A stretch of 41,146 nucleotides of DNA, from assembly GCA_020631375.1 (NCBI GenBank), contig JAHDHJ010000002.1:7889-49034 (forward strand). The letters are read 5' to 3'. Under the pieces are notes generated by a model. It ran no database searches, was not told the origin of the DNA, and worked only from the letters and a program-made list of their open reading frames with translations. The stretch is from Saprospiraceae bacterium (GTDB taxonomy: Bacteria > Bacteroidota > Bacteroidia > Chitinophagales > Saprospiraceae). Both the position numbers and the translations under genes were made by a program. Shown one piece after another: positions 5,180-38,642 of this stretch (position 1 is its first letter; each line of letters starts with the position of its first letter).

Positions 5180-5212
5180 ATAGATGGCTAGATAATTAGA
5201 TTTAGAGATTTT
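5177..5212 (+). repeat. TAGAT-rich 3'-end repeat, copy 1
   Basis: This 36-bp stretch starts exactly at the TAA stop of the preceding T9SS gene. It matches 33 of 36 positions of the sequence that starts at the ahcY stop codon (16051-16089, opposite strand). Inside it the pentamer TAGAT recurs every 8 bp (TAGAT-GGC-TAGAT-AAT-TAGAT). It runs directly into the terminator. Confidence 0.7.
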
Positions 5213-5252
5213 AAAAAACCCTCATTCAGTCTTGGCTGAATGAGGGTTTTTT
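5213..5252. terminator. Bidirectional terminator between T9SS gene and gcvP
   Basis: A near-perfect hairpin: CCCTCATTCAG (5219-5229) pairs with CTGAATGAGGG (5236-5246), flanked by six A on the left and six T on the right. It therefore terminates in both directions and serves the two convergent genes. Confidence 0.92.
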
Positions 5253-5295
5253 AAAATGTTATTCACCGTAAAGCAAAATCGCAATCCTGCAAGGC

Positions 5296-37265: not shown

Positions 37266-37327
37266 TTTGGTTTTATCATTAAGGGAACAATTAATGTTTT
37301 CAATGGTAACGTAGCTTATCCCCCTTA

Positions 37328-37630
37328 CTATCTATGCCCTTTAGGAAATATTTCCATATCTTCCACATAAGCCAAAATACTTCCTGTACTGATTTTTTTC
37401 ATTTTGCTGAAATTCCCATTCTCTAACCATTCCGACCACCTGAATCGTGGTGGTTTTGGGTCATTTTGCAATTCTTTATTCGCAGAACCCGATTGGCGGA
37501 TGCAAAAAGAAAGAATATGCCTGGAATTAGAGGGAATTTCAATTTCATCCTTAAGAGCATGTTTAAATTTAACATTTTGGGCTAAAAATATCCCTTTTCC
37601 GATTATATTTCCACGCCTCTGTCGTGGCAA
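37328..37630 (-). pseudogene. Chimeric ORF: unknown gene remnant running into an inverted-repeat element
   Basis: A 100-residue open frame with no ATG (first candidate start is TTG). Its first 26 codons lie inside the inverted-repeat element at 37552-37783, whereas residues 27-100 (KDEIEIPSNSRHILSFCIRQ onward, including PKPPRFRWSEWLENG) lie outside. The outside part looks protein-like and may be the end of a gene interrupted by the element. Deleting 37552-37783 would join it in frame to an ATG at 37814 (MFGIAFALEY), making 84 residues, but that ATG itself lies in a terminal-repeat-like sequence. No family is recognised, so the call is tentative. Confidence 0.35.
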
Positions 37631-37783
37631 ACTGTTTCAAAATACTCATTTAGCTAAGGCTAAATTACTCACGATAGATTATCTATGGTGTTCGTGAAAC
37701 TTGCGGTTTCCGTTTTTTGTGCCTCGTCTAATCAAAAAAATGACTGTTTTTAACTCCAAAAGCCAATTTTAAACATGCTCTTA
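37552..37783. mobile_element. 232-bp MITE-like inverted-repeat element
   Basis: The ends are inverted copies of TAAGAGCATGTTTAAA (16 of 16 identical), continuing imperfectly for about 12 bp. The interior has no transposase but a perfect 7-bp hairpin, ATTTAGC-TAAG-GCTAAAT, at 37648-37665. If the repeats begin at AGAGC, the flanking TA on each side could be a target duplication; if they begin at TAAG, no duplication is seen. A third end-like sequence lies 18 bp further out (37801-37819). Confidence 0.65.
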
Positions 37784-37800
37784 TATATTCCAAAGCAAAA

Positions 37801-37819
37801 GCAATTCCAAACATGCTTT
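37801..37819 (-). repeat. Third terminal-repeat-like sequence
   Basis: Read on the minus strand, AAAGCATGTTTGGAATTGC is close to the right end of the neighbouring element (AGAGCATGTTTAAAATTGGC), in the same orientation. It suggests a nested or tandem insertion. Confidence 0.4.
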
Positions 37820-38264
37820 ATTTTAAGTAATCAATTAGCTTTAAGCAATAAAGTTAATAATTATTACAACAATGGGAAATTGCCTTGGCTATTGATACTG
37901 TGGTCAATGCGGTATTGAAGTGGAAATGCAATTTTGTTTCTCTCCTGTTATGGCAATGTTCCAATCCGGGACTCTGCTTGGAATTCCGATAGAGGAATTC
38001 GTTTCGTTTCGCAAAATCAAAACTATGGCTTTTACCTTTTTTATGTCTATATAATAGAAATCTTCACGAACCATTGCTACGAAAACCACCTGATAAATAT
38101 GAATCGTCTAACATCTGAAATCGGTTGCGTTTTACGCAACCTGAATTATTTAATTCCGGATTACATCATAAAAATCCAAGCATTAGTCGATAAGAAATGA
38201 ACCGTATGTTCATTTGCTACATCTTTGTTTTAGTATTGTATCATAAAATAAAAAATTATAGATC
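37820..38264. other. Gene-poor part of the island
   Basis: About 445 bp before the DUF4870 gene. It contains an EcoRI-site hairpin (GAATTCC-GATAGA-GGAATTC, 37981-38000) and the palindrome copy at 38124-38155. A 61-residue minus-strand frame (37904-38089) has no ATG-based start and no recognised family. No convincing gene is present. Confidence 0.5.
38124..38155 (+). repeat. TTGCG palindrome with conserved flank, copy B
   Basis: GTTGCGTTTTACGCAAC followed by CTGAATTATTTAATT. The palindrome is identical to the copy at 33681-33697 and the flank differs at two positions. Here it is intergenic, about 110 bp upstream of the DUF4870 gene. Confidence 0.75.
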
Positions 38265-38642
38265 ATGGAAGATATGTTTGTTCCTTCAGAATCAGAAACC
38301 TTAGCTGGACAAGATGAAAAGCTTTGGGGCATGTTGTCACACTTGAGTACCTTTTTGGGAGGTGCTTTTCCCATTGCTAATATCATAGCTCCTCTTATTC
38401 TAATGTCTTATTATCAGGATAAATCGGAATTTGTTTCCAATCATGCCAAGGAAGCCTTGAATTTTCAGATTTCTTTGGTACTTTATTATTTCATTGCCGG
38501 TTTATTAGCATTCGTATTCATAGGTTTTCTTTTCATACCTATAATATTTATCGGTTCAATAATATTGACAATTAAAGCAGCATTAGATGCAAACAAAGGA
38601 GAAAGGGTTTCCTATCCATTCTCCATAAGATTCATAAAATAA
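38265..38642 (+). CDS. DUF4870 small membrane protein
   Basis: A 125-residue inner-membrane protein. A short acidic N-terminus precedes DEKLWGMLSHLSTFLGG, the usual DUF4870 opening, then hydrophobic segments at about residues 30-50, 66-95 and 90-112 separated by DKSEFVSNHAKEALNFQ. The family is widespread and its function unknown. The ATG at 38265 is the only reasonable start. It is closed by a strong terminator and is probably transcribed alone. Confidence 0.88.
   Translation: MEDMFVPSESETLAGQDEKLWGMLSHLSTFLGGAFPIANIIAPLILMSYYQDKSEFVSNHAKEALNFQISLVLYYFIAGLLAFVFIGFLFIPIIFIGSIILTIKAALDANKGERVSYPFSIRFIK

Follow-up and report, generated by a model that had tools for sequence, protein, structure and literature searches.

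A 226-bp element at positions 37555-37780 of the window, the whole 41,146-nucleotide stretch of Saprospiraceae DNA analyzed here, is best read as a rearranged and probably inactive copy of a TWA-inserting MITE. It would belong to a superfamily of about 160 bp, carried by Saprospiraceae-like bacteria and selected for the fold of one strand, for the letters of an outer loop, and for length; we give this reading a probability of about 0.7. Put most cautiously, this is a MITE superfamily in which selection maintains the folding of one strand.

The constant part of the superfamily would be a central hairpin made of an outer stem, an internal loop (RAGGCR / AACGAA), a second stem, a second internal loop, and an apical hairpin. 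Selection would preserve how one strand folds, which letters its outer loop has, and how long the element is, with the stems and the terminal inverted repeats drifting through compensating changes. Transposases of the IS4/5 group probably move at least the GAGC, GAGT, and GAAGC lineages, and the fold would act as RNA or as single-stranded DNA, recognized by a factor indifferent to the sequence of the ends. Where compensating changes keep a fold inside a mobile element, the implication is that some factor reads it in one of these two forms.

MITEs are found and classed by their ends because transposases read ends, and the interior of a normal MITE is free. Here, the ends vary most and the folded interior least, the reverse of an ordinary MITE, and search software based on ends would split this superfamily into many unrelated families.

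The element in the window

The sequence-only reading had placed a MITE-like unit with perfect 16-bp inverted ends at 37552-37783. The perfect ends, TAAGAGCATGTTTAAA, are present at 37552-37567 and 37768-37783, and the element is one of many copies; the limits, by contrast, move inward, because the other copies set the boundary at 37555-37780, with ends GAGCATGTTTAAA. TAA on the left and TTA on the right belong to the target, and their being reverse complements of each other is a coincidence; each "16-bp end" is accordingly made up of a 13-bp end and 3 target letters. In this copy, the 2 triplets are unequal, and the 3-bp duplication is therefore imperfect. With up to 3 mismatches allowed, the 16-mer end occurs 3 times in the window (0.96 expected), and the 2 exact occurrences are the ends of the element. 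The inverted arms reach 47 nt at 77% complementarity. Folded as DNA, the plus strand reaches -34.6 kcal/mol; 200 shuffles average -17.03 (sd 3.22), and none is as low (z -5.46). The element contains no ORF of 60 residues of its own; 2 ORFs reach into it from outside. Features are collected in Table 1.

Table 1. Features of the element and its surroundings, in window coordinates.
Feature	Position	Strand	Basis and remarks
MITE-like element, 226 bp	37555..37780	-	Strand with GAGGC, whose fold is kept in relatives; boundary from other copies, strand from the excess of G.T over A.C in relatives
Left inverted end, GAGCATGTTTAAA	37555..37567	+	Inverted-end comparison, other copies
Right inverted end	37768..37780	-	Inverted-end comparison, other copies
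Left target letters, TAA	37552..37554		Other copies
Right target letters, TTA, differing from the left	37781..37783		Other copies
GAGGC side of the outer internal loop, intact	37721..37725	-	Column counts in relatives
Site of the AACGAA side of the outer loop, interrupted at 37612-37633 by a 22-bp insert that forms a hairpin	37609..37638	-	Comparison with shorter copies: C37 and C313 (162 bp each), C167 (184 bp)
Apical hairpin, TTTAGC-TAAG-GCTAAA	37649..37664		Fold
45-bp insert with its own hairpin, beside the apical hairpin	37665..37709		Missing from those 162- and 184-bp copies
Relic of the element's right part, 81% alike, outside the element; contains the ATG at 37814	37797..37817	-	Inverted-end comparison
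ORF entering the element; no family match	37328..37630	-	ORF list, homology searches

Comparison with other copies shows that this one is an untypical, rearranged member with 2 extra hairpins and a broken core. The 184-bp copy on contig C167 carries an insert at the place of 37612-37633 only. A sister copy on contig C83, cut by the contig end, matches positions 60-229 of the 232-bp query at 93% identity. The model of the conserved core described below gives the window copy 15.6 bits (E 0.51), weaker than another match in the window (E 0.09). That top, weak match, at 5210-5255, is a terminator-like bidirectional hairpin with A and T runs between convergent ORFs.

As had been pointed out, the minus-strand ORF runs into the element. 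The excision arithmetic was also reproduced: with 232 bp cut out, translation from the ATG at 37814 stays open for 84 residues, against 53 residues for the alternative cut of 230 bp. A canonical excision, which takes 229 bp (the 226-bp element and one of the 3-bp target copies), restores the same frame with 85 residues, and hence the frame gives no preference to the 37552-37783 boundary. The proposed start codon itself sits within the relic element end. The sequence-only reading saw a decaying gene here. A 74-codon open stretch adjoins the element and is matched in 0.15% of mononucleotide shuffles (one frame, picked after it was seen to be open), and a second open frame follows it in the same direction. 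However, the flanking ORF has no Pfam match; searched against 8 other genomes of the genus, the 467-bp flank gave only weak matches of 26-51 bp, in 3 of them, with no useful DNA match, and no empty site was found in the 8. The decaying gene is thus unproven, and a coding remnant is plausible.

A folded core shared by relatives

Copies from different species have similar lengths and form one long hairpin despite their differing sequences. They share an 88-nt hairpin in which the stems co-vary and the outer internal loop (AGGC / AACG) changes little. Conservation of this interior was not visible to the sequence-only reading. Core seeds were picked by a text rule (AGGC, an AACG-like word, and a 6-bp hairpin), and 17 of them were aligned on a 27-pair structure (alignment A2). 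Since the rule asked for AGGC and an AACG-like word, the constancy of loop letters in A2 is partly by choice; the 2 outer stems were no part of the rule, and 93.7% and 85.7% of their cells are paired. Covariation in A2 is 0.478, against 0.178 (sd 0.017) after shuffling and at most 0.142 with the partners slid, and 21 of the 27 pairs have changes on both sides.

Later core matches come from the model built on these seeds (covariance model R1, the core without its ends). Alignments A3 and A4 were fitted to R1 and contain related rows, and the E-values are rough. In A3 (91 cores from fetched loci, 76 of them distinct), 97.2% of cells are paired compared with 69.1% in shuffles, covariation is 0.684 compared with 0.162, and both-side changes are seen in 26 of 27 pairs. 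The columns AGGC, GGAG, TGA, and AACG are nearly fixed, and most stem columns vary. In A4, drawn from the element's own genome (G000), covariation is 0.437 compared with 0.135 shuffled; the apical stem is paired in 52.6% of cells, partly because subtypes in this genome shift the stem. In the 154-bp elements of genome G002, the fold is kept and the loop words are replaced by GGCGAA and AAAGAC, which counts against constancy of the letters. A kink-turn reading of the outer loop was weighed by eye and dropped.

The stems also carry an asymmetry. Cells with G.T or T.G outnumber those with A.C or C.A by 30:5 in A2 (2 stems), 92:14 in A3, and 161:25 in A4, counts that are not independent since the rows are related. 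An excess of about 6:1 indicates that one strand is folded, namely, the GAGGC strand, which is the minus strand in the window. This bears on an explanation that we regard as unlikely, in which these elements are an IS5-type MITE family of the ordinary sort that contains a long palindrome. Their interior would be passive, its 2 arms changing together as gene conversion or template switching carried changes across, and different ends would follow different transposases. Conversion between arms would favor neither strand, contrary to the excess seen.

Many ends on one core

The ends of these elements are of many kinds. In a set of 27 genomes, 82 cores were kept from 91 matches (places covered by 2 loci were counted once, and 2 weak matches were removed). 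An inverted pair with at least 14 of 18 letters flanks 72 of the 82 cores, with 10 lacking acceptable ends, and 65 of these 72 copies measure 159-169 bp. Examples of the ends are GAGCNTGTTTAAA, GAAGCTGTTTGAA, CTAGTGCNTCAGGAAC, TAGACTTTATTCTAAA, AAGTAATCAGACAAAA, and AGGGAGTAGGAAATAA.

The host genome alone repeats this picture. From 78 matches in G000, 72 copies were placed (duplicates, contig ends, and one partial match were left out); 51 have at least 11 of 14 end letters paired and a length of 150-190 bp, 40 of them falling at 158-162 bp, and 21 have no acceptable ends. The 2 ends of one element agree at 87% of letters, compared with 40% for ends of different elements. Six end families are present in several copies: GGAATG (14), GGGA[CG]TAGG (6), GTAGTTA (6), GAGC (4), GAGTATGTTAGG (4), and TACGCAATTG (4), one copy of the last being 200 bp long. 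Flanking triplets are equal in 32 of the 38 copies of these families, as opposed to 1 of 38, 0 of 37, and 2 of 37 for control triplets 3, 6, and 9 bp further out; the end finder gave TWA a bonus, and the families were made with simple text rules.

Conservation across the 6 families is graded. Members of different families share 38% of end letters (30% with one end shuffled), 52% of stem letters, and 82% of outer-loop letters, and members of the same family 92%, 81%, and 90%, in that order. Single comparisons of ends range from 64% (GAGC/GAGT) through 51% (GGGA/GTAGTTA) and 50% (GGGA/GGAATG) to 25% (GAGT/GTAGTTA), and judging by these identities, the end families are not all unrelated. Because the stems are 81% alike within an end family and 52% alike between families, end swapping by recombination is less likely than drift of whole lineages, and the divergence of the ends looks like such drift. 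The joint drift of ends and stems is also what a passive palindrome would give; the near-fixed length and the near-fixed letters of the outer loop speak against it.

One 319-bp copy in G002 (contig C139, locus L134, 504-822) seems to have a second hairpin, with its own TACACTGTAAC-type inverted ends, nested in one arm, and a G000 copy (locus L459) has similar ends.

Transposases with matching ends

The lineage of the window copy is recognized by its GAGC-type ends. The host draft genome (4.14 Mb in 328 contigs, 88% complete) gave 65 matches to the window element at E<=10, self-pairing ones included. The end pattern TWAGAGCNTGTTTAAA has 24 exact matches in this genome, and the same pattern written backwards has none; genomes G002, G005, and G007 hold 121, 29, and 13 such ends, with at most 1 backwards match in any of 40 genomes. 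Copies on contigs C37, C313, C167, C84, C7, C318, and C216 start with GAGC and have equal TTA or TAA flanks, the one on C216 ending in GCTT instead of GCTC. Among the pairs listed for G002, G005, and G007, there are 20 end pairs on the same contig; by eye, 19 of the 20 have an equal TWA on both sides, and the span including target letters is 159-168 bp in 18, with one of 69 bp and one of 325 bp. Three derivatives of 39, 53, and 53 bp (loci L023, L027, and L013, on C318, C7, and C84) contain little beyond the 2 ends and still have an equal TWA, which suggests that ends alone may suffice for movement in the GAGC lineage.

A search with PF13586 led to an 886-bp element in genome G014 with GAGCATGTCTAAAA ends and TTA on both sides, whose transposase matches PF13340 and PF01609. 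Relatives of this transposase occur in 25 of 199 genomes of the family, including G006 of the same genus and not including G000. In 12 of 30 transposase loci, an end pair of the GAGC, GAGT, GATC, or GAAG type is readable, with an equal TWA in 10 of the 12 by eye; 3 further loci of the 30 have GAAGCTATTTG ends, with the outer border not read. The ends of the transposase elements in G180 (GAGCTTGTTTAAAA), G092 (GAGCCTGTTTAAAA), and G014 (GAGCATGTCTAAAA) match MITE ends; such matches were seen for the GAGC, GAGT, and GAAG types, and none for the other end families. In G014 itself (contig C10), 2 near-identical cores (L274 and L278) lie under TATACTTCACGCGG-type ends, which do not match that genome's GAGCATGTCTAAAA transposase element.

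The classification as a MITE therefore stands: elsewhere in the family, IS4/5-group transposase elements have ends that are nearly the same and duplicate a 3-bp TWA, and the copies are many, with equal triplets. The genome search with the ends that had been proposed as a check found the further copies; the transposase-bearing elements in related genomes were reached through the PF13586 search. The transposase had been reported missing from the window, and the whole draft genome (88% complete) likewise has no match to PF01609, PF13586, or transposase protein P0001; genome G006 has matches to P0001.

The agreement of GAGC-type ends with those of IS4/5-group transposase elements that make TWA duplications, and the equal TWA of the 39- and 53-bp derivatives, are what the ordinary palindromic MITE would predict. 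The same 2 observations count against a further possibility, which we hold to be improbable: a mobile family addressed by shape, in which the machinery would read the internal loops of the folded strand and cut at TWA at a fixed distance, leaving terminal repeats that need only pair and are free to drift. Cutting of this kind would account for a length that hardly varies, for loop letters that are kept, for the asymmetry between strands, and for several end families with one target in a single genome. If it were true, GAGC-ended elements of the IS4/5 group would make use of these ends too, without being the only mobilizers.

Less likely readings: a host RNA or a REP-like element

Compensating stems and constant loop letters are also what one would expect if the host had a structured RNA, as a gene or acting in cis, that a transposon spread and that now serves a cellular role. 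We consider this quite improbable. The tens of young copies, nearly identical and flanked by fresh duplications, suggest a selfish element, and the cores have no preferred orientation to their neighbors: among the 71 of 82 cores that could be counted (8 lay in loci shorter than 2800 bases and 3 were without 2 flanking ORFs), the 4 arrangements of flanking ORFs number 21, 21, 16, and 13, which does not favor a role in host mRNA. Rfam 15 has no match in window positions 37300-38300, and its 6 matches in 8 other loci all lie away from the core.

A REP-like element moved by a RAYT (REP-associated tyrosine transposase), which reads single-stranded hairpins, would suit the one-strand fold, the high copy number, and the Y1 transposases found in 42 of 61 genomes of the family, yet it is very improbable: a core lies beside 1 of 30 Y1 loci examined (of about 110 Y1 matches listed) and 0 of 13 weaker loci, such that a REP-transposase partner is not supported; genome G079 has 22 cores and no Y1 match; and inverted ends with 3-bp duplications are not known as features of RAYTs. 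The column counts show AGGC, GGAG, TGA, and AACG, with no GT[AG]G foot at the hairpin. Excerpts of one study describe atypical secondary structures flanking the RAYT genes of Bacteroidetes (subclass 2.6), a point in favor of such a mover (PMC6006769).

Comparison with known systems

The superfamily shares features with several known systems. IS5-family MITEs with a TWA target are likewise short and non-coding, with inverted ends and a 3-bp TWA duplication, and IS4/5-group transposase elements of related genomes have the same ends as the elements here; the plant Tourist / PIF-Harbinger MITEs are comparable. The present elements differ from IS5-family MITEs in their reversed conservation, with fold and outer loop kept and ends free, in their nearly fixed length, and in having several end families on one core. 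Structured-RNA candidates from comparative genomics resemble them in co-varying stems and constant internal-loop letters, whereas the present core has no Rfam family match and is part of a mobile element present tens of times in a genome.

Among bacterial repeats, ERIC, NEMIS (Correia), RUP, Chunjie, and other MITEs are described by their terminal repeats in the excerpts of the sources used, and they have in common with the present elements an intergenic location, long hairpin folds, and many copies (PMC10969869, PMC3733652). Set against these excerpted descriptions, the difference is that one core here runs through several end families of one genome. REPs and REPINs with their RAYTs are, in the excerpted source, palindromic and of high copy number, and one strand matters (PMC6006769); compared with that partial account, the present elements have no GTAG foot, no RAYT neighbor was found in the loci examined, and their inverted ends come with a 3-bp duplication.

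Distribution

Model R1 finds the core in 120 of 199 genomes of the family (the best 22 candidates per genome were scored, with strict filters), and the host genome has 74 core matches at E<=0.1. In a sample of the phylum, the core appears in 6 of 395 genomes, 4 from the same family and 2 from another family of the class (the best 11 candidates per genome were scored, again with strict filters), and the superfamily may reach beyond one family. An exact core pattern, searched across 84,980 species with one genome apiece, retrieved 97 stretches, most of them from one assembly. The titles among the 80 listed of these 97 are Saprospiraceae, Chitinophagales, or Lewinella sp. W8, and the label "Saprospiraceae-like" rests on them. 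The exact pattern had no match on viral contigs. No published description of this element was found in titles and the beginnings of abstracts, a coverage that leaves out most subscription journals. The closed genome G419, from another family of the class, has 8 more distant cores (loci L271, L277, L281, L284, and L287), several of which carry TATACCAA-type ends.
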